Origin: an uncultured Planctomycetota bacterium | GTDB lineage: Bacteria > Planctomycetota > Phycisphaerae > Phycisphaerales > UBA5793 | NCBI GenBank assembly: GCA_900696685.1 | Contig: CAADHA010000152.1 | Coordinates: 1-55,563 of the forward strand | DNA: 55,563 bases | Direction: 5' to 3' | In this document: positions 37,565 through 55,163 of the stretch, one piece after another | Layout of the letters: each line of letters begins with the position of its first letter | How positions within the stretch are numbered: position 1 is the first letter of the stretch | Program-made: the position numbers and the translations under genes | The notes under the pieces: generated by a model | What the model saw: the letters and a program-made list of their open reading frames with translations, nothing else | Databases searched by the model: none | Told to the model about the DNA's origin: nothing

Positions 37565-38737
37565 ATGACCACTCCCGGACACGCGATGATCGACCTCGAG
37601 GCACTCCTGAGCGAACGGATGCAGGCGATGGAGCCTTCAGGCATCCGCCGCGTCTTCGAACTCGCGTCGAAGATGCGCGATCCGGTCAATTTCTCGATCG
37701 GCCAGCCCGATTTCGATGTGCCCGAGCCGATCAAGCAGGCGGCCATCGACGCCATCCGCGCCGGGCGCAACGGCTACACGATCACGCAGGGAATCGCCGA
37801 ACTTCGCGCTGCCGTCGCGCTGAAACTCTCCGGTGAGTTCGGCTGGGAGATCGGCCCGGGACTCGAATGCGACGTGCTCATCACCAACGGCACGAGCGCG
37901 GGCCTTCTGCTCGCCTACACGGCCCTTGCCGATCCAGGCGACGAGATCATCATCCCCGACCCCTACTTCGTCTCCTATCCCCAGGTGGCGGCCATGGTCG
38001 GTGCGGTCGTGCGCTACTGCGACACCTATCCCGACTTCCGCATGACGGCGGCGCGCCTCGAGCCGCTCCTCACCGACCGCACGAAGTTCGTCGTGCTCAA
38101 CTCGCCCGGCAATCCTTCCGGCGTGGTGCTGAGCAGCGACGAACTGCGGGAGATCGTCGATCTGTGCGAGTCGCGCGGGGTCCTGCTGCTGAGCGACGAG
38201 ATCTACGACGAGTTCACGTACGGCGACGGGCGGGAGGCGGGCGTCTTTCCGACTCCGGCGCGATTCTCGAACCAGATGCTCGTGTTGCGCGGCTTCAGCA
38301 AGACGTGGGGCATGACGGGCTGGCGCCTCGGCTATGCCGTCGGACCATCCCGCCTCATCCGTGAGATGACCAAGGTCAACCAGTACTCTTTCGTCTGCGC
38401 GCCGCACATGGTGCAGCACGCCGGCGTCGTCGCGCTGCGAACCGACATGTCCTCTTACGTTGCGGCCTACGAGCGCAAGCGCGACATGGTCGTCGAAGCC
38501 CTGGGCGGCCTGACGGAGATCGCCCACCCCGCCGGCGCGTTCTACGCCTTTCCTCGGGTGCCGCAACATCTCAGCCTTACCGGCGACGCCTTCTTCCGCA
38601 AGGCGCTCGAGCGCAACGTTCTCGTCATCCCCGGCAACATCTTCTCGCAGCGCGACACGCATTTTCGCATCAGTTATGCCGTCGATGACGCGCGACTCGC
38701 CCGCGGCCTCGAAATCCTCGCGGCGCTGATGAAGTAA
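37565..38737 (+). CDS. Class I/II PLP aminotransferase (aspartate/aromatic type)
   Basis: This 390-residue aminotransferase of fold type I has the PLP lysine in GFSKTWGMTGWRLGYA (Lys246). Other landmarks are GQPDFDVPEPIKQAAIDAI, NGYTITQGIAELRAAVA, LITNGTSAGLLLAYTALADP, NSPGNPSG and LLLSDEIYDEFTYG. It belongs to the aspartate/broad-range group. It could move amino groups from phenylalanine or tyrosine, but substrate is not fixed by sequence. It sits 5' of the paa genes and may feed phenylpyruvate to the dehydrogenase complex. An alternative ATG at 37523 is preceded by TATGAT. Confidence 0.82.
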   Translation: MTTPGHAMIDLEALLSERMQAMEPSGIRRVFELASKMRDPVNFSIGQPDFDVPEPIKQAAIDAIRAGRNGYTITQGIAELRAAVALKLSGEFGWEIGPGLECDVLITNGTSAGLLLAYTALADPGDEIIIPDPYFVSYPQVAAMVGAVVRYCDTYPDFRMTAARLEPLLTDRTKFVVLNSPGNPSGVVLSSDELREIVDLCESRGVLLLSDEIYDEFTYGDGREAGVFPTPARFSNQMLVLRGFSKTWGMTGWRLGYAVGPSRLIREMTKVNQYSFVCAPHMVQHAGVVALRTDMSSYVAAYERKRDMVVEALGGLTEIAHPAGAFYAFPRVPQHLSLTGDAFFRKALERNVLVIPGNIFSQRDTHFRISYAVDDARLARGLEILAALMK

Positions 38738-38745
38738 GAACTCAA

Positions 38746-38783
38746 CCCACGCCCACGATGAGGCTCTGCGAATCGTGGGGTGG
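38746..38783. repeat. Dispersed palindrome, family A (short-loop form), copy 3
   Basis: CCCACGCCCACGATGAGGCT and CTGCGAATCGTGGGGTGG form a hairpin with CCCACGAT/ATCGTGGG arms. It is in the gap between the aminotransferase and the thioesterase, right upstream of the thioesterase -10-like site. Confidence 0.8.
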
Positions 38784-38791
38784 TCCCAGCA

Positions 38792-38797
38792 TAGACT
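38792..38797 (+). promoter_or_regulatory. TAGACT -10-like hexamer, 6 nt before ATG (leaderless candidate)
   Basis: TAGACT is followed by CCCCCG and the ATG at 38804. There is no ribosome-binding site. One of five cases; it directly follows a family A palindrome. Confidence 0.35.
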
Positions 38798-38803
38798 CCC
38801 CCG

Positions 38804-39211
38804 ATGAAGCCCGGACTGAGAATCGGCAATCGCGCCGAGGTCATCATCACGGTAACGGAAGACATGTGTCCCGCATTCGACGGCATCGTGGTGCATCATG
38901 TCTACTCCACCTGGTCGATGGCCCACCACATGGAGATCGCCGCCCGCAAGGTGCTCATGCCGCACCTCGAGGAACATGAGGAAGGCATCGGTTCGCACCT
39001 CTGCATCGACCACCTCGCGCCGACGCCGGCGGGGCGCACGGTGCGCATCGAGGCCGTGGCCGTCGAACTCGATCCGACGACGCTGGTGTGCGAGGTGACC
39101 GCATATCATGTCCGCCCGGATGGGGAGAAGGTGGTCGGGCGCGGCCGGCAGGTGCAGCGCATCCTTCCGCGGACCAAACTGGAAGCCCTCATCAGGCGTG
39201 AATCACATTGA
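38804..39211 (+). CDS. FlK-like hotdog thioesterase
   Basis: This 135-residue hotdog-fold protein resembles fluoroacetyl-CoA thioesterase FlK: VVHHVYSTWSMAHHMEIAAR, then IGSHLCIDHLAPTPAG and GRTVRIEAVAVELDPTTLVC. Ser/Thr-Glu and His residues at the FlK active-site positions are present (STWSMAHHMEI and DHLAP). In paa clusters a hotdog thioesterase (PaaI) removes trapped CoA esters, so this protein may play that part, though the family is different. It is encoded just before paaF. Confidence 0.75.
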   Translation: MKPGLRIGNRAEVIITVTEDMCPAFDGIVVHHVYSTWSMAHHMEIAARKVLMPHLEEHEEGIGSHLCIDHLAPTPAGRTVRIEAVAVELDPTTLVCEVTAYHVRPDGEKVVGRGRQVQRILPRTKLEALIRRESH

Positions 39212-39232
39212 TCGCCCGCAACGGATGGCAAC

Positions 39233-40012
39233 ATGAGCAACGAAGAACCGCTGATTCTCACCGAGACCGAAGGCCACGTCGCCATCATCCGCCTCAACCG
39301 CCCCAAGGTGCTCAACGCGCTCAATCCCGAACTCATGTCAATGCTCGCGACGCAGATGGAGGCGTACGACAAGGATCCGGGCATCTATGTCATCGTCCTC
39401 TCGGGCAGCGAGAAGGCGTGGGCGGCGGGGGCGGACATCGGCGACATGGCCGAGCAGTCGGCCATCAGCATGTACGAGCGCGACCAGTTCGCCACGTGGG
39501 AGCGCATCAAGCGCGTCAAGAAGCCGATCGTCGCGGCCGTCAGCGGCTGGTGCCTCGGCGGCGGTTGCGAACTCATGATGCACTGCGACGTCGTCGTGGC
39601 GTCGGAGACGGCCCAGTTCGGCCAGCCGGAGATCAACATCGGCGTCATGCCCGGCGCCGGCGGCACGCAGCGCCTCCCCCGCGCGCTCGGCAAGGCGCTC
39701 GCCATGGACGTCATCCTCAGCGGACGCTTTCTCTCCGCGCAGGAAGCGCTTGAGCACGGCCTGGTGAGCCGCGTCGTTCCCAGGGAGCACTTCTTCACCG
39801 AGGCGGTCAAGGTGGCCCACGCGATCGCCTCGAAAGGCCCCATCGCCCTCCGCTTCGCCAAGGAGGGCGTCCTCAAGGCCTTCGAGACGCCCCTCTCGGA
39901 AGGACTCGAATACGAACGCAAACTCTTCTACATGCTCTTCGCCACCGAGGACCAGAAGGAAGGCATGCGCGCCTTCATCGAGAAGCGCAAGGCCGATTTC
40001 AAGGGCAGATAG
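39233..40012 (+). CDS. paaF: 2,3-dehydroadipyl-CoA hydratase-type enoyl-CoA hydratase
   Basis: This 259-residue crotonase-fold enzyme hydrates 2,3-dehydroadipyl-CoA to 3-hydroxyadipyl-CoA in the beta-oxidation part of the phenylacetate pathway. The oxyanion hole is in SGWCLGGGCELMMHCD and the catalytic glutamates are in GGGCELMM and GQPEINIGVMPGAGGTQRL. The name rests on position next to paaG/H/J; other enoyl-CoA hydratases look alike. It starts 21 bp after the thioesterase gene, so both share a transcript. Confidence 0.8.
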   Translation: MSNEEPLILTETEGHVAIIRLNRPKVLNALNPELMSMLATQMEAYDKDPGIYVIVLSGSEKAWAAGADIGDMAEQSAISMYERDQFATWERIKRVKKPIVAAVSGWCLGGGCELMMHCDVVVASETAQFGQPEINIGVMPGAGGTQRLPRALGKALAMDVILSGRFLSAQEALEHGLVSRVVPREHFFTEAVKVAHAIASKGPIALRFAKEGVLKAFETPLSEGLEYERKLFYMLFATEDQKEGMRAFIEKRKADFKGR

Positions 40013-40779: not shown

Positions 40780-41592
40780 ATGACCGCCGCCGCCGCACCG
40801 ACGTATGAGACGATCCAGTACGATGCCGCCAGCCACGTTGCGACCATCACGCTCAATCGCCCCGACGTCTTCAACGCGTTCAACGATCCGCTGTCGAAGG
40901 AACTCCTCGCGGCACTCAAGGAGGCCGAGCGCGACGCCGCGGTGCGCGTCGTCATCCTCACCGGCGCCGGCAAGGCGTTCAGCAGCGGGCAGGACCTGGG
41001 CGATCTCAAGAAGAAGTACGTGCCCGGCCACGTGCCGCACCTCGGCGACGACCTGCGCCGCCGCTACGACCCGATCATCAGGAAGATCGCGGAGTTGGAC
41101 AAGCCGACCATCGCCGCCGTCAACGGCGTCGCGGCCGGGGCCGGCTGCAGCCTGGCGCTGGCCTGCGACCTGCGCATCGCCTCGGATCAGGCGACATTCA
41201 TCGAAGTGTTTATTAATGTCGGGTTGATACCCGATTCCGCGAGCACCTTTTTCCTGCCTCGCCTCATCGGCCTCGGCCGGGCGATGGAACTGTGCTGCAT
41301 CGGCCGCAAGGTTGATGCGGAGGAAGCGCTTCGCATCGGCCTGGTCAACCAGGTCGTCCCCGCCGGCGAACTTGTGACGGCGGCCAGGGCGCTCGCCGCC
41401 CGACTCGCCTCGCTGCCCGGTCGCGGCCTCGCACTGACCAGGCAACTGCTGCGAAAGAGTTTCGAGCGCTCCCTCGATGAACAACTTGTCGCCGAAGCGT
41501 TCGCGCAGGAGACCGCGGGCATGACCGCCGACCATTATGAGGGCGTGATCGCCTTCATCGAAAAACGCAAACCCGTCTTCACCGGCAAGTGA
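40780..41592 (+). CDS. paaG: 2-(1,2-epoxy-1,2-dihydrophenyl)acetyl-CoA isomerase
   Basis: This 270-residue crotonase-fold enzyme isomerises ring-1,2-epoxyphenylacetyl-CoA to the oxepin form and later acts on dehydrosuberyl-CoA. The PaaG pattern is FSSGQDLGDLKK, NGVAAGAGCSLALACDLRIA and EVFINVGLIPDSASTFFLPRLIG, quoted in pieces such as INVGLIPDSASTFF with the catalytic Asp in GLIPDSAS. GGGAGATCC precedes the ATG. It is separated from paaF by the transposase element. Length and motifs fit PaaG better than a general hydratase. Confidence 0.88.
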   Translation: MTAAAAPTYETIQYDAASHVATITLNRPDVFNAFNDPLSKELLAALKEAERDAAVRVVILTGAGKAFSSGQDLGDLKKKYVPGHVPHLGDDLRRRYDPIIRKIAELDKPTIAAVNGVAAGAGCSLALACDLRIASDQATFIEVFINVGLIPDSASTFFLPRLIGLGRAMELCCIGRKVDAEEALRIGLVNQVVPAGELVTAARALAARLASLPGRGLALTRQLLRKSFERSLDEQLVAEAFAQETAGMTADHYEGVIAFIEKRKPVFTGK

Positions 41593-41676: not shown

Positions 41677-42897
41677 ATGCACACCAGCACCGTCGGCATC
41701 CTCGGGGGCGGGACGATGGGCGCAGGCATCGCGCAGGTCGCCGCGATGCACGGCTGGATGGTCGAGTTGCGCGACGTGGATGAAGCCGCGGCCAGGCGTT
41801 CGATCGTGGGCATCACCCGCCGCCTCGATCAACTCGCCGAGAAAGGCCGACTCACGCCTGAGCAGCGCAACGACGCCGAGTCGCGCCTGTGCCTCGCCCG
41901 CTGCCCCGACTGCCTGGGCGACTGCGAACTCGTGATCGAGGCGATCGTCGAGCAGATTGAGGTCAAGGCCGCCGCCTTCCGCGAACTGCTCCCTTCCCTC
42001 CGCCCTGACGCGATTCTCGCCACGAACACCTCATCGCTCTCGGTAACGAAACTGGGCGAGGCGGTGGGCCAGCCGCAGCGCCTCGTGGGGATGCACTTCT
42101 TCAACCCGGCGCCGATCATGAAACTTGTCGAAGTGATTGCCGGTGAGCGGAGCGATCCGGCGGTCGTCGATCGCGTGGCGCAGATCGCGCAGCAGTGGGG
42201 CAAGGTTGTCGCCCGCGCCAGCGATTCGCCCGGCTTCATCGTCAACCACGTCGCCCGGCCGTACTACCTCGAAGCCTTCCGGATTCTCGAGGCGGGACAT
42301 GCGAGCGTCGAGGAGATCGACGCGGCGATGCGCGAGGTCGGCGGCTTCCGCATGGGACCGCTCGAACTGGCCGACCTCATCGGCATGGACATCAACACTG
42401 CCGCGGCGCGCTCGGTGTGGGAGCAACTTGGCAGGCCGGCGCTGCTCGAGCCCAGCGCGCTGCAGGAGCGAATCGTCGCGGCGGGTCATCTCGGCCGCAA
42501 GACGCAGCGCGGCTGCTACGACTACGCGCTCGATCCGCCGGCACCGGCGATCGAGATCGAGCGCCGGCCGATCGAGTTGACCGAGACCGCGCGCGACCTC
42601 GTGTCCCGCTTCGCGCAGCGCGGCGCTGCGGCGCCCGGAACGGACCTTCAGAACTACATCTTCGCGCGCATTCTTGTCTGCATCGTCGCGCAGGCGGCGA
42701 TGGCCTTCCGCCGCGGCGTGGCCCGGCGCGAGGATATCGACGCCGCGATGCGCTTCGGCGTCAACTACCCGCGAGGCCCCTTCGAGTGGATGCGGTTGAT
42801 CGGACCGGACCTCTGCGACCAGTGGCTTGCCGCCCTCGCCGCATCGAGCGGCTCCGACCGCTACCGCCTCTCGCCGCTGGCAGAGGTCGCAGGATGA
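41677..42897 (+). CDS. paaH: 3-hydroxyadipyl-CoA dehydrogenase
   Basis: This 406-residue NAD-dependent dehydrogenase oxidises 3-hydroxyadipyl-CoA to 3-oxoadipyl-CoA. The NAD-binding start is VGILGGGTMGAGIAQVAAMH; the catalytic segment is LVGMHFFNPAPIMKLVEVIAG, quoted in part as GMHFFNPAPIMKLVEV, and IVNHVARPYYLEAFRILEAG follows. A C-terminal second helical domain (about 290-400) is present, as in PaaH. GGAGGACTCACC precedes the ATG. An in-frame ATG at 41620 would lie in the repeat and is rejected. Confidence 0.9.
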   Translation: MHTSTVGILGGGTMGAGIAQVAAMHGWMVELRDVDEAAARRSIVGITRRLDQLAEKGRLTPEQRNDAESRLCLARCPDCLGDCELVIEAIVEQIEVKAAAFRELLPSLRPDAILATNTSSLSVTKLGEAVGQPQRLVGMHFFNPAPIMKLVEVIAGERSDPAVVDRVAQIAQQWGKVVARASDSPGFIVNHVARPYYLEAFRILEAGHASVEEIDAAMREVGGFRMGPLELADLIGMDINTAAARSVWEQLGRPALLEPSALQERIVAAGHLGRKTQRGCYDYALDPPAPAIEIERRPIELTETARDLVSRFAQRGAAAPGTDLQNYIFARILVCIVAQAAMAFRRGVARREDIDAAMRFGVNYPRGPFEWMRLIGPDLCDQWLAALAASSGSDRYRLSPLAEVAG

Positions 42898-43069: not shown

Positions 43070-43074
43070 CCGCC

Positions 43075-44280
43075 ATGCGAAAAGTCGCCGTCATTGACGC
43101 GGTCCGCACGCCGATCGGGCGCTACGGCGGGGCGCTGGCCGCGGTCCGGCCTGACGACCTCGCGGCGCTGGTCATCGCCGCCGTCGTTGCGCGCACGAAG
43201 ATCGACCCGGCCGTCATCGAAGAAGTCTACTTCGGCGACGCGAACCAGGCGGGCGAAGACAATCGCAACGTCGCGCGCATGGCCGCCCTGCTCGCAGGCC
43301 TGCCGGAAACCGTCGCCGGCTGCACGATCAACCGCCTCTGCTCCTCCGGCCTTGACGCCATCAACATCGCCTCGAGGATGATCGAGAGCGGCACGGGCGA
43401 CGTGATGATTGCCGGCGGCGTCGAGTCGATGAGCCGCGCACCCTTCGTCTTCGCCAAGCACGAAAGCGCCTGGGATCGCACGCCGCCCGAGGTCTTCGAC
43501 ACCACCATCGGCTGGCGCTTCACGAACCCGAAACTCGCAAAGTTGCATTACCCCTGGTCGATGGGCGAGACGGCCGAGAACGTCGCACGCAAGTACGAGA
43601 TCAGCCGCGCCGACCAGGATCGATTCGCATTGCGGAGTCAGGAGAAATGGGCGGCGGCGCAGCAGGCGGGAAAGTGGGACGAGGAGGTCATTCCCGTCGA
43701 GATCCCGCAGCGCAAGGGGCCGCCGGTGTTGGTGAAGATCGATGAGCACCCGCGCCCGGACACAACGCTCGAAGCGCTTGCCAACCTCCGCCCGGCCTTC
43801 GCGAAAGATGACAAGGGAACGGTGACGGCGGGCAATTCATCCGGCATCAACGACGGGGCCGCGGCTCTGCTGCTCGTCGAGGCGGGTCGAGCCAAGCAAC
43901 TGGGTCTCAGGCCGCTGGCCTTTGTCGGACCCAGCGCGAGCGCCGGCGTCGATCCTGCGTACATGGGCGTCGGACCCGTGCCCGCCACGGAAAAAGTGCT
44001 CCGACGCTGCGGAAAGACAGCGGCGGGTCTCGATATCATCGAACTGAACGAGGCGTTCGCCGCCCAGAGCCTCGCGGTCCTGCGGCTGCTGGGTCTCGAA
44101 GCGGCCAACGTGAATCCCAACGGCGGCGCGATCGCCATGGGTCACCCGCTGGGATGCTCCGGCGCCAGGCTCGTCACGACGCTCGTTCACGAGATGAAGC
44201 GGACAAAGGCCCGAATCGGTCTGGCGACATTGTGCGTCGGCGTCGGCCAGGGCGTGGCGACGATCATTGAAGGAGGATGA
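43075..44280 (+). CDS. paaJ: 3-oxoadipyl-CoA/3-oxo-5,6-dehydrosuberyl-CoA thiolase
   Basis: This 401-residue thiolase cleaves 3-oxoadipyl-CoA to succinyl-CoA and acetyl-CoA. Catalytic cysteine 1 lies in INRLCSSGLDAINIA, His in GGAIAMGHPLGCSGARL, and cysteine 2 in LATLCVGVGQGVA. Family segments DAVRTPIGRYGG and NVNPNGGAIAMGHPLG are present. The N-terminal MRKVAVIDAVRTPIG fits the usual start; an in-frame ATG at 43015 is not homologous. The acetyl-CoA acetyltransferase reading is possible but the paa position favours PaaJ. Confidence 0.88.
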   Translation: MRKVAVIDAVRTPIGRYGGALAAVRPDDLAALVIAAVVARTKIDPAVIEEVYFGDANQAGEDNRNVARMAALLAGLPETVAGCTINRLCSSGLDAINIASRMIESGTGDVMIAGGVESMSRAPFVFAKHESAWDRTPPEVFDTTIGWRFTNPKLAKLHYPWSMGETAENVARKYEISRADQDRFALRSQEKWAAAQQAGKWDEEVIPVEIPQRKGPPVLVKIDEHPRPDTTLEALANLRPAFAKDDKGTVTAGNSSGINDGAAALLLVEAGRAKQLGLRPLAFVGPSASAGVDPAYMGVGPVPATEKVLRRCGKTAAGLDIIELNEAFAAQSLAVLRLLGLEAANVNPNGGAIAMGHPLGCSGARLVTTLVHEMKRTKARIGLATLCVGVGQGVATIIEGG

Positions 44281-44501: not shown

Positions 44502-45524
44502 ATGTCAGGCAGCGCCAACGTCGGAGTTCACGTCGATCACGAACATCCCGAAGTCCCCGGCCTCCTCGCCGAGTTCCAGGCCAAGATCGACTCCGGCCAA
44601 CTCATTGAGGCCGATGACTGGATGCCCGCGGCCTACCGCAAAGGCATGCTCATGATGGCCGAGCATCACGCCAACAGCGAGATCGTCGGCGCGCTTCCGG
44701 AGGGTGAGTGGATCACCCGCGCGCCTTCACTTCGCCGCACACTCGCCCTCACCGCCAAGGTGCAGGACGAGGTCGGTCACGGCCAGATGCTCTACCGCGT
44801 CTCCCAGGACCTCGGCAAGACGCGCGACGCGATGCTGCGCGACCTCATCACCGGCAAGACGAAGTACCACAACTGCTTCAACTACCCCGCGCCCACCTGG
44901 GGCGACATCGCCATGATCCAGTGGCTCATCGATGGGGCCGCGATCATGAACCAGAAGACGCTCGCCGACGGCGGCTACGGCCCCTACGTCCGCACCATGC
45001 GCCGCATCAACATGGAAGAGGCGTTCCACTTCAAGAGCGGCGAGGACATGGTCCTTACGCTCATGAGCGGCACGAAAGGGCAGAAGGAAATGGCACAGGA
45101 CGCCTTCGACCGCTGGTGGGGGCCGTCGCTCATGTTCTTCGGCCCGCCCGACAAGCCCAATGCGCATCAGTTGCCGCCCATGCGCTGGCGCATGAAGACC
45201 GTCACCAACGATGATCTCCGCCAGCGCTTCGTCGATCGATTCGTTCCGGCAGCGCTTGATCTCGGCCTGAAAATTCACGTCGTGGAGAAGGACGATCGCG
45301 GCTATGTGACGAGCAAGCGCCCCGACGAGAAGATCGCTCTCAACAACGCCACGGGCCACTGGGAGTTCACCCAGCCGGACTGGGATGAGTTCTTCCGCGT
45401 GATCCGCGGCAACGGGCCGTGCAACGACAAGCGTCTCGCGTTGCGGCGGCTGTCGTACGAGCAGGGGCGGTGGGTGCGCCAGGCGATTCTCTGTGGGTCA
45501 ACCTCGCTGCCTCCCGCCGCGTGA
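44502..45524 (+). CDS. paaA: Phenylacetyl-CoA 1,2-epoxidase, catalytic subunit A
   Basis: This 340-residue diiron subunit of the multicomponent epoxidase adds one oxygen atom to the aromatic ring of phenylacetyl-CoA. Metal ligands are visible in the helices: E in LIEADDWMP, E-x-x-H in KVQDEVGHGQMLYR, and E-E-A-F-H in NMEEAFHFKSGED. The N-terminal IEADDWMPAAYRKGM and later WWGPSLMFFGPPD are typical of PaaA. AAGGATCC lies before the ATG. It starts an operon with paaB, paaC and paaD. Confidence 0.95.
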   Translation: MSGSANVGVHVDHEHPEVPGLLAEFQAKIDSGQLIEADDWMPAAYRKGMLMMAEHHANSEIVGALPEGEWITRAPSLRRTLALTAKVQDEVGHGQMLYRVSQDLGKTRDAMLRDLITGKTKYHNCFNYPAPTWGDIAMIQWLIDGAAIMNQKTLADGGYGPYVRTMRRINMEEAFHFKSGEDMVLTLMSGTKGQKEMAQDAFDRWWGPSLMFFGPPDKPNAHQLPPMRWRMKTVTNDDLRQRFVDRFVPAALDLGLKIHVVEKDDRGYVTSKRPDEKIALNNATGHWEFTQPDWDEFFRVIRGNGPCNDKRLALRRLSYEQGRWVRQAILCGSTSLPPAA

Positions 45525-45540
45525 ATCTTCGGAGAGATCG

Positions 45541-46984: not shown

Positions 46985-47502
46985 ATCGCGTGATCGATCG
47001 CCGCTCCATCATGGACGTCCTGCGCACCATCCCCGATCCGGAGATGCCCATCAGCATCGTCGATCTCGGGTTGATCGAGTCTGTCGAGGTGGCGCCCTCG
47101 GGCGATCAGAGCGCGGTCCGCGTCGTCGCCCTGCCGACGTTCGTCGGCTGCCCGGCGCTGGACATGATCCGCCGCGACATTGAAGATCGCGTCGGCGCGC
47201 TGCTGGGCGTCAGGTCGGTTGAGGTGCAGTGGGTGAACGAACCGCCGTGGTCCGTCGATCGCATCAGCGCCGCCGGCCGCGAGTCGCTCCGCGCGCACGG
47301 CGTCACGGTGCCGGACCCCGGCGGTCAACTCGCCGGCTCGGGCGCGGCGACAGTCGCCCTCACCGTCGCCGGCGCCGTGCCCTGCCCCTTCTGCGGTTCG
47401 ATAATGACGCGCCAGGATAGCCCCTTCGGCCCCACGCGCTGCCGCATGATCTACTACTGCGACGCCTGCCGCAACTCCTTCGAGCATCTCAAGCGCGTGT
47501 GA
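46981..47502 (+). CDS. paaD: PaaD-type iron-sulfur assembly protein
   Basis: This 173-residue protein begins with a MIP18 (DUF59) domain: LRTIPDPEMPISIVDLGLIE and PTFVGCPALDMIRRDIEDRV, quoted in part. It ends with a zinc-ribbon CPFCGSIMTRQDSPFGPTRC...YYCDACRNSFEHLK, a layout seen in PaaD. PaaD helps mature the epoxidase or its reductase. The GTG start overlaps the paaC stop. No paaE follows; the next gene encodes the dehydrogenase E1alpha. Confidence 0.9.
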   Translation: MNRVIDRRSIMDVLRTIPDPEMPISIVDLGLIESVEVAPSGDQSAVRVVALPTFVGCPALDMIRRDIEDRVGALLGVRSVEVQWVNEPPWSVDRISAAGRESLRAHGVTVPDPGGQLAGSGAATVALTVAGAVPCPFCGSIMTRQDSPFGPTRCRMIYYCDACRNSFEHLKRV

Positions 47503-47578: not shown

Positions 47579-48733
47579 ATGTCGCCGCGCTCCGCCACTT
47601 CGAACTCCGCCGCCTCCCGCACGCATCCTGTGCGCATTGAGAGCAGGGCCGACGGCTCGATCGACCTTGGCTCGATCGAGGTGATCCGCGTGCTTGACGA
47701 GCAGGGCGATGTCGTCAACGCCGACCTCGATCCGAGCCTCTCCGACAGCGATCTGCTCCGCATCTATCGCGGCATGGTCCGCTCGCGCCGTCTCGACCTT
47801 CGCATGCTCGCCATGCAGCGGCAGGGCGAGATGGGCACGTTCGCCCCCGGCCTCGGGCAGGAAGCGACGCAGATCGGCCAGGTCTACCCCATGACCAGCC
47901 GCGACTGGTATGCCCCGTCGTACCGCTCGATCGGCGCGCAGGTCTGGCGCGGCTGGTCGATGGATCAACTTCTGCTGCTCTGGGCCGGCTACTTCGAGGG
48001 CTTCGGCATTCCCGAGGGGGTCAACGACCTGCCCTTCTCCATTGTCATCGGCGCCCACGTGCCCGTCGCCACCGGCGTGGCGATGGGGATTCGCAACCGC
48101 AAGGATGACGGCGTCGTCGTGACCAACTTCGGCGATGGCGCCTCCTCGCAGGGCATCGTGGCCGAGTCCTTCAACTTCGCGGCCGTGTACAAGGCCCCGA
48201 TCATCTTCATCGTCGAAAGCAACGGCTGGGCGATCTCGACGCCGATCGAGAAGCAGTGCGGCAATCCGGTGCTGGCCGCACGCGGCGTGGGCTTCGGCCT
48301 GCCCGCGGTGCGCGTGGACGGCAACGACGTACTCGGCATGATCGCCGCCTGCAGCCGCGCGATCGATCATGCCCGCAGCGGGCGCGGGCCCTACCTCGTC
48401 GAGGCCGTCACCTACCGCATGAGCCTGCACACCACTGCAGATGATCCAAAGGTCTACCGCAAGGATGAAGAGGTGAAGGCGTGGGAGGCCAAGTGCCCGA
48501 TCCGGCGCTTCGAGAACTACCTCAAGGCCCGCGACGTGCTCGATGATGAGGCCATCGCGCGCATCGGCGAGGAGATCGAGCAGGAAGTGCTGGCGGCGCG
48601 CGAGACGTTCCGCAAGCGCGCGGTGCCTCGCCCCAAGGAGATCTTCGACTTCGTCTACGAACAACTTCCCGCGGACCTGCAAGGACAGAAAGCGGAGTAC
48701 CTGGAGCGATTGAAACGCAAGAGTGTGGAGTAG
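47579..48733 (+). CDS. 2-oxoacid dehydrogenase E1 component, alpha subunit
   Basis: This 384-residue thiamine-diphosphate enzyme subunit has the TPP-binding motif NFGDGASSQGIVAESFNFAA and FIVESNGWAIS. The N-terminal QRQGEMGTFAPGLGQEATQI and YAPSYRSIGAQVWRG are typical of the branched-chain/pyruvate E1alpha family. Substrate (pyruvate, branched-chain 2-oxoacid or arylpyruvate) is not fixed by sequence. It begins about 75 bp after paaD, with GAGAGGG upstream. With E1beta, E2 and E3 it forms a complete complex within the paa island. Confidence 0.88.
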   Translation: MSPRSATSNSAASRTHPVRIESRADGSIDLGSIEVIRVLDEQGDVVNADLDPSLSDSDLLRIYRGMVRSRRLDLRMLAMQRQGEMGTFAPGLGQEATQIGQVYPMTSRDWYAPSYRSIGAQVWRGWSMDQLLLLWAGYFEGFGIPEGVNDLPFSIVIGAHVPVATGVAMGIRNRKDDGVVVTNFGDGASSQGIVAESFNFAAVYKAPIIFIVESNGWAISTPIEKQCGNPVLAARGVGFGLPAVRVDGNDVLGMIAACSRAIDHARSGRGPYLVEAVTYRMSLHTTADDPKVYRKDEEVKAWEAKCPIRRFENYLKARDVLDDEAIARIGEEIEQEVLAARETFRKRAVPRPKEIFDFVYEQLPADLQGQKAEYLERLKRKSVE

Positions 48734-48780: not shown

Positions 48781-48788
48781 GGGGGAAT

Positions 48789-48824
48789 GCACCCCACGAT
48801 TCGCAGAGCCTCATCGTGGGCGTG
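48789..48824. repeat. Dispersed palindrome, family A (short-loop form)
   Basis: GCACCCCACGATTCGCAGAG then CCTCATCGTGGGCGTG: identical to the copy at 44409. It directly follows the family B copy, in the E1alpha-E1beta gap, 25 bp before the E1beta start. Confidence 0.85.
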
Positions 48825-48849
48825 AGGCGGAACAGAGGATGATCGAGTC

Positions 48850-49833
48850 ATGCCGCAACTGACGATGGTCGAGGCCCTCAACCTGGCGCTGGGCGAGTCC
48901 ATGGCCGCGGACGATCGCGTCTGCGTCATGGGCGAGGACGTCGGCATCAACGGCGGCGTCTTCCGCGTCACCAAGGGGCTGCTCGACCGCTTCGGACCCG
49001 AGCGCGTCATCGACACGCCCCTGGCCGAGAACGCCATCGTCGGCACGGCCGTCGGCATGGCGGTCTACGGCCTCAAGCCCGTCGCCGAGATCCAGTTCTC
49101 CGGCTTTACGATGCAGGCCTTCGACCAGATCGAGCAGAACATGGCGCGCTATCGCAACCGCACGCGCCACCGCTACCCCATCTCGATGGTGATGCGCGCG
49201 CCCTATGGCGGAGGCATCCGCGCCGTCGAGCATCACAGCGAGTCGCGCGAAGCCTACTGGGCCCACACGCCGGGCCTCAAGGTCGTCATCCCCTCCGGCC
49301 CGCGCAACGCTCGCGCCCTGCTCGCCGCGGCCATTGCCGACCCCGACCCCGTCATCTTCTACGAGCCAAAGGCCGTCTACCGCGCCTTCCGCGAAGAAGT
49401 GAGCGAAGAACCGGAGGTGATGGAGATCGGCAAGGCGCACGTCGTGCGGCTCGGCGGCGACCTCACGCTCATCGGCTACGGCGCCATGATGCGCCCTGTC
49501 CTCGAAGCGGCCGATGATCTCGTCGAGGAGCACGGCGTCGATGTCGAGGTGATCGACCTCCTCTCCATCAAGCCGATGGACACGCCGGCGCTGGTCGAAT
49601 CGGTGAGCAAAACTGGCCGCTGCGTCATCGTGCACGAAGGGCCGCGCACCTGCGGCGTGGCGGCCGAGATCATCGCCCGTCTCAACGAGTACGCGTTCGA
49701 GTACCTGCTCGCGCCGATCCGCCGCGTGACGGGATTTGATATTCACTTCCCCTTCTTCCAGGTGGAGAAGCACTACCTCCCCGACAGCGACTCGATCGTC
49801 GCGGCGGTGAAGGAGACGATGTCGTGGAGGTGA
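48850..49833 (+). CDS. 2-oxoacid dehydrogenase E1 component, beta subunit
   Basis: This 327-residue transketolase-like subunit has MVEALNLALGESMAADDRVC, GEDVGINGGVFRVTKGLLDR and DTPLAENAIVGTAVGMAVYG (quoted in part), the usual pyrimidine-binding E1beta pattern. The C-terminal transketolase half has IVHEGPRTCGVAAEIIARLN. AGAGGATGATCGAGTC precedes the ATG. It pairs with the E1alpha gene; the gap between them holds two unrelated palindromic repeats (48734 and 48789). Confidence 0.9.
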   Translation: MPQLTMVEALNLALGESMAADDRVCVMGEDVGINGGVFRVTKGLLDRFGPERVIDTPLAENAIVGTAVGMAVYGLKPVAEIQFSGFTMQAFDQIEQNMARYRNRTRHRYPISMVMRAPYGGGIRAVEHHSESREAYWAHTPGLKVVIPSGPRNARALLAAAIADPDPVIFYEPKAVYRAFREEVSEEPEVMEIGKAHVVRLGGDLTLIGYGAMMRPVLEAADDLVEEHGVDVEVIDLLSIKPMDTPALVESVSKTGRCVIVHEGPRTCGVAAEIIARLNEYAFEYLLAPIRRVTGFDIHFPFFQVEKHYLPDSDSIVAAVKETMSWR

Positions 49834-49854
49834 ACTCGAATCGGAAGCAGAACG

Positions 49855-49986
49855 CTTACCACGAAGAGCACAAAGTCACCAAGGAGGCACAAGGGTAGCG
49901 TCAAAGAACTGGATCAAATGATTCGGTGCATCAGACTCAGGATCTGCTTCGTGCCCCTTTTGTGCCTTTGTGTCCTTTGTGGTGAA
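49855..49986. repeat. Inverted pair of CACAAAGTC-type repeats, family E
   Basis: The left unit (49855-49895) contains TTACCACGAAGAGCACAAAG and CACCAAGGAGGCACAAGGG; the right unit (49951-49986) is an inverted copy (reading TCACCACAAAGGACACAAAG on the minus strand). They are 55 bp apart and fill most of the E1beta-E2 gap (49834-50000). I recall this CACAAAG-type repeat in many bacteria, near degenerate transposase remnants; this is memory. Confidence 0.75.
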
Positions 49987-50000
49987 TGCAGGACGAGAAC

Positions 50001-51338
50001 ATGGCAACGAAAGATTTCATCCTCCCCGATCTCGGCGAAGGCGTGCATGAAGGCCAGATTGTGCGCCTCATGGCCAGGACCGGCGACGCCGTCCGCGAAG
50101 ATCAGCCGCTCATGGAGGTCGAGACGGACAAGGCCTCGGTCGAGATTCCCTCGCCCTTCTCCGGCACGATCGCCAAGTGGCACGTGAAAGAGGGGCAGGC
50201 GGTCAAGGTCGGAGAGGTCATGGTGACGTTCGCCGACGGCCCCGCTGAATCGGGCGAGGGAAACCTCGGCGCGACCGAGCGTTCGAGTCCGGCGGCATCG
50301 TTGTCGGCCTCCATTGTGCGACCCGGCGCCGACAAGGCCGCAGCCAACGGCGGCGTCGCCGTCGCCGTCGCCGCCCCGGCCGCTCGGCGTGCGCCCGCTT
50401 CCCCTGCCGTACGCAAACTGGCCCGCCAGCACAATCTTGACATCGAAACGATTCGCGGCAGCGGCCCGGGCGGGCGCATCACCCGCGCCGACGTGGAGCG
50501 CGCCGCTTCCAGCGTTGCCCCGTCTCGCGCTGCAACCGACTCCGTCGCGCGCCTGCCGTCTTCGCCTCCAATCGTGGGGCCGCGCCCTGCGCCCATCGCG
50601 GAACCAGTCGAACCTCCCGGCGCCTCGGATCATGACAACTGGGGTCCGGTCCGTCGCCAGAAGAATTCAATGGCGCGAAGGACCATCGCCGCCAACATGG
50701 TCCAGTCGTGGACCACGATCCCGCACGTCACCGACAGCGATGATGCGGACGTGACCGACCTCGACCGCCTCCGCCGCGGCTACCCGGCCCCGGAGAACGG
50801 GCAACGGAAGATCACCATGCTTGCGTTCGTCATCCGCGCCGTCGCCCGCGCGCTGACGATGCATCCGGAGTTCAACGCCGTCTTCGACGCCGAGCACGAT
50901 CAGATCGTGTATCGCCGCTACATCAACATCGCGATCGGCGTTCACACGGAGCGCGGCCTGATCACGCCGGTGATCCGAAACACCGATCAACTGAGCGTCA
51001 TCGAGATCGCCGACTCGCTCATTGACCTTTCTGCCAAGGCGCGCGAGGCGAAGTTCACCGTGAACGACACGCGCGGCGGGACGTACACGCTCTCCAATCC
51101 CGGCGCGCTGGGGGGCAGCCGCTACAGCACGCCCATTATCCCACCCGGCCAGTGTGCCGTGCTCGCGCTGGGGCGCATGCGCCTCATGCCCTGGGTCGTT
51201 GACGGCGTCCTCCAGCCGCGTCTCATCCTGCCGCTGAGCCACTCCTTCGATCACCGCATCGCCGATGGCGGGCATGAGGTCGCCTTCATGCGGCAGGTGA
51301 TCGAATCGCTCGAGAATCCGGCCCGGCTGCTGCTCTGA
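50001..51338 (+). CDS. Dihydrolipoyl acyltransferase E2 component
   Basis: This 445-residue E2 has one lipoyl domain (DLGEGVHEGQIVRLMARTGD, lipoyl Lys44 in EVETDKASVEIP), an alanine/proline linker, a peripheral subunit-binding domain (ASPAVRKLARQHNLDIETIR, then GSGPGGRITRADVERAA) and an acyltransferase domain ending in the active site LSHSFDHRIADGGHE. The GEGVHEGQ start is of the branched-chain type (GEG-x-x-E). AGGACGAG is upstream of the ATG; ATG 49986 is an alternative. It transfers the acyl group from lipoyl to CoA. The short linker fits a compact single-lipoyl E2. Confidence 0.9.
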   Translation: MATKDFILPDLGEGVHEGQIVRLMARTGDAVREDQPLMEVETDKASVEIPSPFSGTIAKWHVKEGQAVKVGEVMVTFADGPAESGEGNLGATERSSPAASLSASIVRPGADKAAANGGVAVAVAAPAARRAPASPAVRKLARQHNLDIETIRGSGPGGRITRADVERAASSVAPSRAATDSVARLPSSPPIVGPRPAPIAEPVEPPGASDHDNWGPVRRQKNSMARRTIAANMVQSWTTIPHVTDSDDADVTDLDRLRRGYPAPENGQRKITMLAFVIRAVARALTMHPEFNAVFDAEHDQIVYRRYINIAIGVHTERGLITPVIRNTDQLSVIEIADSLIDLSAKAREAKFTVNDTRGGTYTLSNPGALGGSRYSTPIIPPGQCAVLALGRMRLMPWVVDGVLQPRLILPLSHSFDHRIADGGHEVAFMRQVIESLENPARLLL

Positions 51339-51366
51339 GGCCAACCGAAAGGCGCGAGGCACACGC

Positions 51367-52746
51367 ATGGTCGTCGGCGAGTTCACGCAGGAGGCGAATC
51401 TGGTCATCATCGGCGCCGGGCCGGGTGGCTACAGCGCCGCGTTCCGCGCGGCCGAACTCGGCCTCAATCCCGTCATCGTGGACAGCCGCAAGGACCTCGG
51501 CGGCATCTGCCTTCACGCCGGATGCATTCCCTCCAAGACGCTGCTGCACATCGCGGAGACGATCAACATCGGCAAGCGGGCCGAAGCGTTCGGCGTGTCC
51601 TATGGCGAGCCGCGCATCGATCTTGACAAGGTCCGCGCGTGGGTGAGTCAGACGACGGACCGGCTCGCGTCGGGGTTGGCGAACCGGGCGAAGAACCTCG
51701 GGGTCGAGATCGTCACGGGCCGCGCGACGTTCGATGATGGGAGAAGCCTCTCGATCCACGGCGGCTCGGTCCCGCGTTTCAGATTCCGCAGGGCGATTCT
51801 CGCCGTCGGGGCACGTGCGATTGAGCACGCGGCCGCTCCCTTCGACAATCGCCTCATCATCGATCCCTGGCAGGCGCTGCGGCTCGAACGCGTGCCGGCG
51901 CGCCTGCTCGTCATCGGCGCGGGCGCTCCAGCCGTGGAACTCGCCTCGATCTACGCCGCGCTGGGAAGCAGGGTCACCCTCGCCTTCGAGCAGGCCCAGT
52001 GCCTGCCCGCGGCGGATACCGATCTGGTTCGGCCGCTTCAGCGCCAGCTTGCCGAGCGGCTCAAGGCCGTGATGCCAGGTGCGACCGTCGCGGAGATGCG
52101 AGTCGTTGCAGAGGAAGTCAAAGCCACATTCATCTCCGGCGACAAGAGCGAGTCGCAGGCTTTCGACGCCGTCATCGTCGCGCTCGGACAGCGCGGCAAC
52201 ACGGGCGATCTCGGCCTCGAGAACACGAAAGTGAAGATCGACGCCGAGGGCTTCGTCGAGATTGATGAGCAGATGCACACGACCGAGCCGCGCATCATGG
52301 CGGTGGGTGACGTGACCGGACGGCCGTGGACTGCGGACCGCGCCCTGGCGCAGGGCCGCGTGGCCGCGGAGGTCGCCGCCGGCTGGAACAGCGCCTTTGA
52401 CGCCCGCGCCGTGCCGCGCGTCGCCTTCACCGATCCGCAGATCGCGTGGTGCGGCCTCACCGAGGCCCAGGCGAACAGCCAGGGCGTTGCGCACAAGGTG
52501 GCCAAGATCCCCTGGGGCGCTTCGGGCCGCGCCGTCGGAATGAACCGCGCCGACGGACTCACCAAGCTCATCTACGACCCCGACACGAAAATGGTCCTCG
52601 GCGTGGGCATCGTCGGCGCCGGCGCGGCGGAGATGATCGGCGAAGGCGCCCTCGCCGTCGAGATGGGCGTCGAACTCGACGACCTCGCGGGGACGATCCA
52701 TCCGCATCCGTCGATGTGTGAACTGCTCGGCGATGCGGCGCGGTGA
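51367..52746 (+). CDS. lpdA: Dihydrolipoamide dehydrogenase (E3)
   Basis: This 459-residue FAD/NAD disulfide reductase has FAD motif VIIGAGPGGYSAAFRAAELG, redox disulfide GGICLHAGCIPSKTLLH (Cys48 and Cys53), the NAD motif LLVIGAGAPAVELASIYAAL (with GAGAPAV in place of the usual GGGxIG), and the C-terminal IHPHPSMCELL with the His-Glu base. It re-oxidises the E2 lipoyl arm. It starts 28 bp after the E2 stop. The unusual HAGC and GAGAP forms mark it as distinct from the housekeeping Lpd, so it may be dedicated to this complex. Confidence 0.93.
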   Translation: MVVGEFTQEANLVIIGAGPGGYSAAFRAAELGLNPVIVDSRKDLGGICLHAGCIPSKTLLHIAETINIGKRAEAFGVSYGEPRIDLDKVRAWVSQTTDRLASGLANRAKNLGVEIVTGRATFDDGRSLSIHGGSVPRFRFRRAILAVGARAIEHAAAPFDNRLIIDPWQALRLERVPARLLVIGAGAPAVELASIYAALGSRVTLAFEQAQCLPAADTDLVRPLQRQLAERLKAVMPGATVAEMRVVAEEVKATFISGDKSESQAFDAVIVALGQRGNTGDLGLENTKVKIDAEGFVEIDEQMHTTEPRIMAVGDVTGRPWTADRALAQGRVAAEVAAGWNSAFDARAVPRVAFTDPQIAWCGLTEAQANSQGVAHKVAKIPWGASGRAVGMNRADGLTKLIYDPDTKMVLGVGIVGAGAAEMIGEGALAVEMGVELDDLAGTIHPHPSMCELLGDAAR

Positions 52747-52769: not shown

Positions 52770-52848
52770 GATGCGAAGACGCAAGCGACGCCGCGAATGT
52801 TTGCCTCGATGTTCGTCCAGCGCGCCCGACGTCGCTTGCGACTTCGCC
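52770..52848. repeat. Inverted repeat between convergent genes, family F
   Basis: GATGCGAAGACGCAAGCGACG (about 52771-52791; 21 nt in total) and CGTCGCTTGCGACTTCGC (52829-52846) are inverted near-copies about 38 bp apart. They lie between the lpdA stop (52746) and the paaY stop (52849). A terminator or REP-like role is possible. Confidence 0.65.
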
Positions 52849-53445
52849 TCACTTCCGCTCATGCTTCGGCGCATACCGGTGCAGCGGGACGCGCGGACGC
52901 TGGTCTTCCACCTCGCGCAGCGGCTCCACTTCGCGCATCGTCGCGTTGTAGTTCCGCGCCACTTCCTGGTAGATTTCCGTCCCCTGCGTCTTCCACTTCA
53001 CTTCGTCATCCGAGAGTCGACGGATGACCCTGGCGGGAATGCCGGCCACCAGCGTGCGCGGCTCGACGATCATCCCGGCTTTCACGAACGTGAGCGCCGC
53101 CACGAACGCTTCCTCGCCGATCACCGCGTCGTCCATGACGACCGCGAGCATGCCGACCATCGCGTTGCGCCTGATTGTGCAACTGTGCAGGACGGCGCCG
53201 TGGCCGATGTGCCCGTTCTCTTCGACGACGACGTTCTTGCCGGGGAAGCAGTGCAACGTGCAATTGTCCTGCACGTTGCAGCCGGCCTTGAGGATGAGTT
53301 GTCCGATGTCGCCGCGCAGCGAAGCGCCGGGTCCGACGAGGCACGCCGGCCCGACGATCACGTCGCCGACGAGCGACGCCGTCGGATGCACGAACGCCGT
53401 CGCATCCACGACCGGCCGCACACCCATGAACTCATAACACGGCAT
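52849..53445 (-). CDS. paaY: PaaY-type gamma-carbonic-anhydrase-fold thioesterase
   Basis: This 198-residue left-handed beta-helix protein matches the PaaY pattern closely: FVHPTASLVGDVIVGPACLV, GASLRGDIGQLILKAGCNVQ, DNCTLHCFPG, GHIGHGAVLHSCTIRRNAMV and VGMLAVVMDDAVIGEEAFVA. The C-terminal EVEPLREVEDQRPRV is also family-typical. PaaY hydrolyses the CoA ester of a dead-end tropone product and works with PaaG/PaaI. The three zinc-type histidines are in place. GAGGTGATG precedes the ATG. It faces lpdA across an inverted repeat. Confidence 0.92.
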   Translation of the reverse strand: MPCYEFMGVRPVVDATAFVHPTASLVGDVIVGPACLVGPGASLRGDIGQLILKAGCNVQDNCTLHCFPGKNVVVEENGHIGHGAVLHSCTIRRNAMVGMLAVVMDDAVIGEEAFVAALTFVKAGMIVEPRTLVAGIPARVIRRLSDDEVKWKTQGTEIYQEVARNYNATMREVEPLREVEDQRPRVPLHRYAPKHERK

Positions 53446-53486
53446 GGGACATCACCTCGCGTGATTGCCGCAGCGATGAACGGACG

Positions 53487-55163
53487 TCAGCCCGCCACAG
53501 GTATCCGGCTCTGCACGATGCGGAAGCGATTGGCGACGAAGGCGCCGTCGCAGAGCGTCGCGTTGCCGGCCGGATTGGCGCCCGACACGTGGAAGTCGCT
53601 GAACGCCGCCGCCTGGTTCACCCATATCGAGCCGGTGAGGTTGCACGAGAGGGCCACGCCCGCGTCCATCGCCGCCTCCTCCGCCTTCTCGATGACCTTC
53701 GGGTTCGTCGAGTAGATCGCGCAGGTGATGGCCCCCTTCTCGCGCGCGATGTCCGCGGCGAGGCGGATGCTCTCATCGGTGCCGGCAGTCGCGATGACGT
53801 AGGCGATCGGGCCGAACATCTCGCGCGCGAACTTCTCGCGATCCTTCGACTCCGCCCTGAGAATGATCGGGCTGCGCAGGCGGGCCTTGGGAAACGCCTC
53901 GTTGACCACCGGCTTCGACTCGCGCAGGACCGGCAGGCCCTGCTGCTTTGCCTCGTCGACGCGCCGGGCGGTGTTCTCGTTCTGGATCGCGCCGAGGACT
54001 TCGGCGGCGCGCTTGGGCTCGCTGAGGAACCAGTCGACGGCCTTGACGATCGCACCGGCAACTTCATCAAACGACTTGTGTCCTTCGGTCGTCTCGATGC
54101 CATCGCGCGGAATGAAGATGTTCTGGCTCGTCGTGCACATCTGGCCGGAGTAGAGGCTGAGCGTAAAGGCCAGATTGCCCGTAACGGCCTTGAGATTGTC
54201 GACGCTGTCGATGATGACGGAGTTGACGCCCGCCTTCTCGGTGTGGACGACGGCGTGTTTCGCGTTCTGCTCGATCCACTCGCCGAAGGCGCTGGAGCCG
54301 GTGTAGTCGATGATCTTCACCTCGGGCCGCTGAACGAGGGTCTTGGTGATGGGAGCATTCGCTTCGTCCGCCGCGAGGGTAATGACGTTCGGATCAAAGC
54401 CCGCTTCACGCAGCACCTCGCGCGCGATCTCCACGGTAATCGCCAGCGGCAGGATCGCGCCGGGATGCGGCTTGACGATCACCGCGTTGCCCGTGGCGAG
54501 GCTGGCGAAGATCCCCGGATAGCCGTTCCACGTCGGGAAGGTCGAGCAGCCGATGGTCAGCGCGATCCCGCGCGGCACGATGCGGAACGTCTTGCGCAGC
54601 GTCACCGTCTCTTCCTTGCCGACGCGCTTGGACCAGATCGCCTGCCGCGGCGTGCGGGTCATCTCCTCATAGGCATACGCGACGGCCTCGAGGCCCCGGT
54701 CCTGCGCGTGCGGCCCGCCGGCCTGGAAGGCCATCATCCACCCCTGCCCCGTCGTGTGCATCACCGCCAGCGCCATTTCGAAACTGCGCCGATTGAGGCG
54801 GTTGAGGATTTCGAGGCACACGCCGATCCGCGCCTCGACGTCGGCCCGCTTCCAACCCTCCCACGCCTTGCCCGATGCGGCGATGAGCGAGTCGAGATCC
54901 ACTCGGGGATACCTGATCCCGAGCGACAGGCCATAAGGCGACGCTTCCGCCCCGACAGCGCCGGGTGCGCCGGGGTGGGCGGTAAGGATGAAGGGCTTGT
55001 CGAGGCGCGCTTCGAAGGCCTTCTGGCCGTCGTCCTTGGCGCTCTCGCCGTAGACCTTTCCGCTGGGGATTTCGGGGTACGCGCTCCAGCAGGCGCGCTC
55101 GCGGATGGCCTTGAGGGCGCTGTCAAGCGTGGCGCGGTGGGCGGTGAAGAATGATTGACTCAC
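53487..55163 (-). CDS. paaN: PaaN-type semialdehyde dehydrogenase (no hydratase domain)
   Basis: This 558-residue aldehyde dehydrogenase-family protein is of the PaaN (TIGR02288-like) group: FRIVPRGIALTIGCSTFPTW, NAVIVKPHPGAILPL and the catalytic Cys343 in LYSGQMCTTSQNIF. It likely oxidises 3-oxo-5,6-dehydrosuberyl-CoA semialdehyde after ring opening. The MaoC-type hydratase domain of PaaZ is absent, so a separate hydrolase would be needed for ring opening. The start is a GTG with GAGGA 8 nt upstream. It is about 40 bp from paaY, so the two share one transcript. Confidence 0.88.
   Translation of the reverse strand: MSQSFFTAHRATLDSALKAIRERACWSAYPEIPSGKVYGESAKDDGQKAFEARLDKPFILTAHPGAPGAVGAEASPYGLSLGIRYPRVDLDSLIAASGKAWEGWKRADVEARIGVCLEILNRLNRRSFEMALAVMHTTGQGWMMAFQAGGPHAQDRGLEAVAYAYEEMTRTPRQAIWSKRVGKEETVTLRKTFRIVPRGIALTIGCSTFPTWNGYPGIFASLATGNAVIVKPHPGAILPLAITVEIAREVLREAGFDPNVITLAADEANAPITKTLVQRPEVKIIDYTGSSAFGEWIEQNAKHAVVHTEKAGVNSVIIDSVDNLKAVTGNLAFTLSLYSGQMCTTSQNIFIPRDGIETTEGHKSFDEVAGAIVKAVDWFLSEPKRAAEVLGAIQNENTARRVDEAKQQGLPVLRESKPVVNEAFPKARLRSPIILRAESKDREKFAREMFGPIAYVIATAGTDESIRLAADIAREKGAITCAIYSTNPKVIEKAEEAAMDAGVALSCNLTGSIWVNQAAAFSDFHVSGANPAGNATLCDGAFVANRFRIVQSRIPVAG

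Follow-up and report, generated by a model that had tools for sequence, protein, structure and literature searches.

How phenylacetyl-CoA arises in a bacterium that carries the genes of the phenylacetyl-CoA (Paa) pathway and no recognisable PaaK ligase is the question raised by a gene cluster of an uncultured planctomycete. Entry into the Paa pathway is usually ascribed to PaaK, and phenylacetyl-CoA is the established substrate of phenylacetyl-CoA epoxidase. We analysed a stretch of 55,563 nucleotides (hereafter the window; contig CAADHA010000152.1, or C152) from an assembly of 4.3 Mb with 94.4% completeness (GCA_900696685.1). Between positions 37565 and 55163, homologues of paaF, G, H, J, A, B, C, D, Y and N enclose genes for the E1alpha, E1beta, E2 and E3 components of a 2-oxoacid dehydrogenase complex. 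Neither paaK nor paaE was found among the scanned open reading frames (ORFs) of the cluster.

We propose, with a probability of roughly 0.7, that E1alpha-E1beta-E2-E3 is a dedicated phenylpyruvate dehydrogenase that forms phenylacetyl-CoA directly and takes the place of PaaK, its substrate being assigned from the gene context. Phenylpyruvate is favoured as the 2-oxoacid that yields phenylacetyl-CoA on oxidative decarboxylation; we recognised no alternative origin for this ester. The initial annotation of the window, made from the DNA letters alone, had put forward the same reading. All the genes it named, including an aminotransferase at the 5' side, were found in place, and the complex indeed lies between paaD and paaY (47579-52746). 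Two features that it had not named, an FlK-like hotdog thioesterase gene and a Y1-transposase-like ORF, were found in addition.

Linkage and co-occurrence of the complex with PaaA

The order was sampled with 201 genomes assigned to the Phycisphaerales by their record titles. PaaA was found in 24 of them, with a match above the cut-off in 23 and one gene split across two contigs. The window-type E1alpha (at least 455 bits and at least 56% identity) was found in the same 24 genomes, and the next best match listed scored 271.5 bits. In the genus g47, five genomes had both PaaA and the window-type E1alpha, and one (G077) had neither. Gene neighbourhoods were compared in stretches from 23 relatives and the window. 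E1alpha and E1beta followed paaC/paaD in all 24, with paaA located elsewhere in two (G198 and G032). A chance neighbourhood was rejected, since both the linkage and the strict co-occurrence hold across the sampled order. The comparison of related genomes, which the initial annotation had named as a check, therefore came out in favour of a dedicated role.

PaaK showed a different distribution. No match above the TIGR02155 cut-off (646.3 bits) was found in the 201 genomes of the order. Strong PaaK-like pairs (508 to 582 bits, the range in which likely PaaKs elsewhere in our searches also score) were present in four genomes, none of which had PaaA. The best PaaK-family match among the 24 PaaA genomes reached 251 bits, far below even the 549 bits of a haloarchaeal PaaK that we used as a yardstick. 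In the host genome the best matches scored 251 and 147.5 bits, and a PaaK elsewhere in that genome was rejected, as these two weak family members were all that the search returned.

The host genome also holds further E1alpha genes. Contig C33 encodes a separate pyruvate dehydrogenase (PDH) E1alpha/E1beta pair (423.7 and 463.8 bits, both above the PDH cut-offs) with an E2. Contig C47 encodes another E1alpha (423.3 bits against a cut-off of 411.35), named PDH by its family, which adjoins genes for a Glu/Leu/Phe/Val dehydrogenase, an acyl-CoA dehydrogenase and an enoyl-CoA hydratase; no E1beta was seen adjoining it. The cluster complex as the sole PDH or branched-chain 2-oxoacid dehydrogenase (BKD) of the genome was rejected on these grounds. 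At least two E1alpha matches, i.e. at least one further E1alpha, were likewise found in each of the 24 PaaA genomes. The initial annotation would have been undermined by a paaK elsewhere combined with this complex as the only dehydrogenase of its kind, and the genome showed no such combination.

The association extended beyond the order. In a sample of 392 genomes across the phylum, PaaA (threshold E 1e-30) was detected in 10, and four of these genomes (G238, G317, G283 and G495) lie outside the order. G238 had the same cluster, with its clade E1alpha at 438.3 bits and no PaaK match better than 243.7 bits; a PaaX-type regulator (278.1 bits, above the cut-off of 264.55) lay between its paaD and E1alpha. 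G317 had a PaaK-family ligase of 576.2 bits and no clade E1alpha.

A pattern-based scan of species genomes yielded 279 relatives, of which the best 80 were kept. The titles of most relatives named Phycisphaerales, Phycisphaerae or Planctomycetota. The best 80 comprised 62 loci of the window's clade and 18 sister loci with 42-48% identity. At least one of paaA to paaD was found in the same locus in 51 of the 62 clade loci, versus none of the 18 sisters, some of whose stretches were short. All of the remaining 11 clade genomes had a PaaA match elsewhere, two of them partial (168 and 71 bits); when three further genomes were added, a match was present in 14 of 14 and exceeded the cut-off in 12. 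In G205, G206, G207 and G210, paaA and the clade E1alpha were found on separate contigs and, within the stretches examined, apart from the remaining cluster genes; the pair therefore persists without visible linkage. One clade locus (L107, WYBR01000033.1) is labelled Vicinamibacteraceae; the cluster is present there with an E1alpha identity of 94%, and the label looks wrong.

In a tree of 62 E1alpha rows built by a quick method, 36 of the 62 clade loci and the window (37 clade rows) formed one clade with an SH-aLRT support of 99 and with G238 outermost. A long-branch warning applies to the distant rows of this tree, above all the PDH of the host's own genome and the row of Geobacillus stearothermophilus.

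These data bear on the possibility that the complex is a third pyruvate dehydrogenase, sited with the paa genes only for co-regulation with aromatic catabolism. Its closest named families and structures are indeed those of PDH, and one sister locus (L174) resembles an ordinary PDH operon in having a lipoyl ligase-type gene (171.1 bits) after E1-E2-E3. However, the same genome has the separate PDH on contig C33, and a third such enzyme would explain neither the missing PaaK nor the persistence of E1alpha with PaaA on different contigs. We therefore regard this possibility as very unlikely.

Plasmid records also contained relatives of both genes: E1alpha relatives, all below 60% identity, in 149 records and PaaA relatives in 175. 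Three regions were inspected. A Halostella plasmid, in which paaA and an E1 pair are about 13 kb apart, was considered as an archaeal parallel and dropped, because the E1 genes lie apart from its paa block, which includes a PaaK (811.6 bits, above the haloarchaeal cut-off). In the Microbacterium and Halobaculum regions, no paa genes were among the listed features adjoining E1, the gene tables of these records being incomplete.

E1, E2 and E3 of the complex

The components of the complex showed the features of a 2-oxoacid dehydrogenase complex. The closest solved structures were PDH E1alpha structures (1w85 and 3duf) for the window E1alpha, and 1um9_B and 3duf_B for E1beta. E1alpha fell marginally short of TIGR03181, the family of pyruvate dehydrogenase proper (410.8 versus 411.35 bits). 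Both subunits had Pfam matches, and the ThDP-site residues Y102a, I206a, H271a and H128b (a, E1alpha; b, E1beta), catalytic in the G. stearothermophilus PDH (PMC2663715), were all retained. Lipoyl, subunit-binding and acyltransferase domains were all present in E2, and E3 retained the redox disulfide and the C-terminal His-Glu pair. E59beta, presumably a further catalytic residue of the G. stearothermophilus enzyme, was also retained in the window E1.

Residue counts were made with one row per named locus and the window (63 rows for E1alpha and 53 for E1beta; E1 rows shorter than 280 amino acids were excluded). P125b of the G. stearothermophilus enzyme, which belongs to the nest round the catalytic H128b, was replaced by valine in all 53 clade rows and by leucine in all 16 sister rows. 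Furthermore, the residues directly past Tyr102alpha were clade-specific. These differences fit a changed E1 pocket and are insufficient for naming a substrate.

The modest extent of the changes leaves room for a complex that supplies the Paa route from a different 2-oxoacid or from more than one, such as 4-hydroxyphenylpyruvate, indolepyruvate or branched-chain acids, with phenylpyruvate as one among many. A PDH/BKD-like family with slightly altered pocket residues would be compatible with such breadth, as would the absence of a constant aminotransferase partner. The linkage and co-occurrence, however, are with the epoxidase of phenylacetyl-CoA. In addition, the E1alpha on contig C47 has a setting that suits branched-chain acids, though its family name is PDH and E1beta was not seen beside it. 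Such a broader substrate range is unlikely on balance, and phenylpyruvate is preferred.

The window E3 (51367-52746) is intact, with its redox pair C48/C53 encoded at 51508-51525 in the motif GGICLHAGCIPSK. The initial annotation had pointed to the surroundings of this site (HAGC before IPSK) as unusual and as an argument for dedicated use. The motif is as it was quoted; its rarity did not hold, and it lends no argument for function. C-L-H was found in 28 of the 32 clade E3 rows that retain CxxxxC, out of 40 rows in total, and because it is usual across the clade, the motif is a mark of the lineage and not an oddity of one genome.

Proposed route and the evidence that weighs against it

In the proposed route, phenylalanine would be converted to phenylpyruvate by transamination. 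The complex would decarboxylate phenylpyruvate and pass the phenylacetyl group via lipoate to CoA, yielding phenylacetyl-CoA, CO2 and NADH. Phenylacetyl-CoA would then be epoxidised by PaaABC(D), and PaaG, PaaN, PaaF, PaaH and PaaJ would carry the epoxide onward to acetyl-CoA and succinyl-CoA. The complex would thereby replace the ATP-dependent ligase PaaK, with NADH gained where PaaK spends ATP, and it would not activate free phenylacetate. Judging from the sequences, phenylalanine is probably fed into the Paa route directly via phenylpyruvate in this planctomycete group.

Several observations weigh against this proposal. The first concerns the PaaK search. The haloarchaeal yardstick scored 549 bits with TIGR02155, yet it passes its own model (811.6 bits); because a genuine-looking PaaK misses the TIGR02155 cut-off, the absence of PaaK rests on low scores and not on the cut-off. 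Eighteen of the 24 PaaA genomes had no PaaK-family match at E 1e-40, in a search that did not extend to other CoA ligase families. An unrecognised CoA ligase elsewhere could thus activate free phenylacetate, leaving the complex with an unrelated task, and the two PaaK-family matches in the host genome (147.5 and 251 bits) could be cited in its support. However, the lack of any such match in the 18 genomes speaks against it, as does the context of the 251-bit ligase. This ligase adjoins MeaB (306.4 bits, above the cut-off), a methylmalonyl-CoA mutase-family protein (684.1 bits) and a 2-hydroxyacyl-CoA lyase (769.7 bits, above the cut-off), and these neighbours suggest a 2-hydroxyisobutyrate-type ligase. 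We consider the unrecognised ligase highly improbable.

On contig C59 (L010, 1243-10845), a PaaK-family ligase is accompanied by MeaB, a methylmalonyl-CoA mutase-family protein and a 2-hydroxyacyl-CoA lyase, together with an acyl-CoA dehydratase activase and a subunit of the benzoyl-CoA reductase/2-hydroxyacyl-CoA dehydratase type. The combination is unusual and may serve acids that resemble 2-hydroxyisobutyrate.

Further points against the phenylpyruvate dehydrogenase come from its distribution and its partners. The 24 genomes are related, so that the co-occurrence counts overstate the number of independent events. Outside the order, G283 (83% complete) and G495 (61%) had PaaA without a strong PaaK and without the clade E1alpha. 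A phenyl pocket is unproven by the E1 sequence, as most pocket residues are those of ordinary PDH or of the sister complexes. Five of the 24 clusters, all from one genus, include a window-type aminotransferase gene, although several of the other stretches end at contig ends. In two clade loci without paaA to paaD in the same locus, a class I aminotransferase adjoins E1alpha-E1beta and is divergent from them (L113, 2934-4067, and L114, 2-1213, both on the - strand); its nearest models were those of aspartate transaminases, below the cut-off. The solved structure closest to the window aminotransferase was 1dju, deposited as an aromatic aminotransferase (E 9.8e-69), almost equalled by 1gd9, deposited as an aspartate aminotransferase. 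The FlK-like thioesterase gene was present in 18 of the 24 clusters, several of which end at contig ends. The dedicated use of the complex in place of PaaK that was initially proposed thus stands well supported by the co-occurrence and linkage in all 24 genomes, the low PaaK scores and the other E1alpha genes; the neighbouring aminotransferase turned out not to be a constant partner, and phenylpyruvate is a substrate that we infer.

Two further points concern electron transfer. No PaaE match exceeded the cut-off in any of the 24 PaaA genomes, so that the epoxidase is left without a recognised electron donor. Weaker long matches (177.1, 173.5 and 119.1 bits) were found in G009, G024 and G110, and six of the 24 genomes, including the host genome, had no PaaE match at E 0.001. 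The PaaE model may miss distant forms, because a Thermus control was positive for PaaA and negative for PaaE. Moreover, by pattern search the cluster E3 lacked CxxxxC in 8 of 40 rows (L133, L134, L140, L142, L143, L118, L126 and L159) and HPxxxE as well in 7 of these 8, with the gene still in place; alignment covered two of these genomes as well. A complex in such lineages would therefore need an E3 borrowed from elsewhere, and a full E3 was found elsewhere in 25 of 25 genomes checked. One might speculate that complex and epoxidase work as a single redox unit: in lineages whose cluster E3 has lost its disulfide, this flavoprotein would have taken over from the unrecognised PaaE as electron donor of PaaABC, a former dihydrolipoyl dehydrogenase thereby driving ring epoxidation, and a second E3 elsewhere would serve the complex; we regard this as a long shot.

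The nearest precedent is PglB/PglC of Streptomyces pristinaespiralis, a PDH-like E1 for which the conversion of phenylpyruvate to phenylacetyl-CoA in L-phenylglycine biosynthesis is itself a proposed step (PMC7089894). Both systems have a two-subunit PDH-like E1, and the pgl operon also includes an aminotransferase and a thioesterase (PMC7089894). PglB/PglC differs in that it is biosynthetic and belongs to an antibiotic cluster, and the pgl operon (A-E) as described there has no E2 or E3; the two systems were compared by description. In the planctomycete, by contrast, a full E1-E2-E3 set is part of a paa cluster that is catabolic and has no recognisable PaaK.

The cluster shares homologues of PaaA, B, C, D, F, G, H, J, Y and N with the PaaK-type phenylacetyl-CoA catabolon, whereas it has no strong PaaK match and no PaaE above the cut-off, and its proposed entry compound is a 2-oxoacid instead of phenylacetate. 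The Bacillus-type pyruvate dehydrogenase complex, whose genes are ordered E1alpha-E1beta-E2-E3, is alike in domains, catalytic residues and gene order. The planctomycete E1alpha differs in forming a separate clade tied to PaaA, with clade-specific residues adjoining the active site. Indolepyruvate/aryl-pyruvate ferredoxin oxidoreductases (Ior) convert aryl-pyruvates to aryl-acetyl-CoA, the same net reaction class, and belong to a different, ferredoxin-dependent enzyme family. In the host, the three POR-domain genes (PF01558 matches) matched pyruvate:ferredoxin oxidoreductase, a 2-oxoacid:acceptor oxidoreductase alpha subunit (only 22.3 bits with IOR_alpha) and a PorC/KorC gamma subunit rather than Ior, in an analysis that did not search the whole genome with the Ior models.

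No report of such a complex in a paa cluster was found among the papers listed by our literature searches (20 of 279 records in one of them), as judged from titles and abstract openings. If the proposal is correct, a widespread group of environmental planctomycetes would have an aerobic route of phenylalanine degradation that produces NADH and avoids the ATP cost. Surveys centred on paaK would presumably miss such clusters or score them as incomplete; a 2026 survey examined gene context within 20 genes of paaK (PMC13186573).

Gene inventory of the locus

The features of the locus are listed in Table 1. The genes from the aminotransferase to E3 lie on the + strand in the order given, and paaY and then paaN follow on the - strand, 3' of E3. 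PaaA, PaaC, PaaD and PaaN exceeded their NCBIfam cut-offs, which places the epoxidase subunits A, C and D with those of the phenylacetyl-CoA catabolon. PaaF, PaaG, PaaH, PaaJ and PaaY were best or near-best family matches, each below its NCBIfam cut-off.

Table 1. Features of the paa cluster in the window, with the profile matches on which the names are based
Feature	Position	Strand	Evidence
Class I/II aminotransferase, probably aromatic	37565..38737	+	Pfam Aminotran_1_2, 222.5 bits
FlK-like hotdog thioesterase, possible PaaI analogue	38804..39211	+	Pfam FlK, 96.7 bits (cut-off 27)
PaaF-like enoyl-CoA hydratase	39233..40012	+	NCBIfam PaaF NF007239, 313.8 bits, third best match, below cut-off 371; Pfam ECH_1
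Y1-transposase-like ORF, between paaF and paaG	40105-40695	+	Similarity to Y1 transposases
PaaG-like isomerase	40780..41592	+	TIGR02280, 273.2 bits, best match, below cut-off 345.15
PaaH-like 3-hydroxyacyl-CoA dehydrogenase	41677..42897	+	NF006124, 445.1 bits (cut-off 508); TIGR02279, 381.8 bits (cut-off 669.4); Pfam 3HCDH
PaaJ/PcaF 3-oxoadipyl-CoA thiolase	43072..44280	+	NF006551, 581.2 bits (cut-off 605); TIGR02430, 567.3 bits (cut-off 597)
PaaA, phenylacetyl-CoA epoxidase subunit	44502..45524	+	TIGR02156, 394.8 bits, above cut-off 280
PaaB, two matched PaaB stretches	45535..46140	+	Pfam PaaB, 67.3 bits (passes); TIGR02157, 59.8 bits, below cut-off 85.45
PaaC	46205..46984	+	TIGR02158, 215.9 bits, above cut-off 133.35
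PaaD	47014..47502	+	TIGR02159, 144.2 bits, above cut-off 108.15
E1alpha, 2-oxoacid dehydrogenase complex	47579..48733	+	TIGR03181, 410.8 bits (cut-off 411.35); Pfam E1_dh, 240.9 bits
E1beta	48850..49833	+	NF006667, 300.9 bits (cut-off 321)
E2, with lipoyl, E3-binding and acyltransferase domains	49986..51338	+	Pfam Biotin_lipoyl, E3_binding and 2-oxoacid_dh, all above cut-off
E3, dihydrolipoyl dehydrogenase	51367..52746	+	TIGR01350, 396.9 bits (cut-off 408.8)
PaaY	52849..53445	-	TIGR02287, 270 bits, best match, below cut-off 319.6
PaaN, type 2 aldehyde dehydrogenase	53487..55163	-	TIGR02288, 851.2 bits, above cut-off 578.75

The intergenic gaps from paaD to E3 were 76, 116, 152 and 28 bases, which fits a single transcript without proving it. 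The GC content was 0.644-0.677 across positions 30000-53999, and two tRNA-Arg genes follow paaN. The window PaaB (45535-46140) is about 200 amino acids long with two PaaB stretches, versus about 90 positions in the family model. The Y1/IS200-type transposase-like ORF at 40105-40695 has comparable ORFs in four other loci (L045, L049, L121 and L123).

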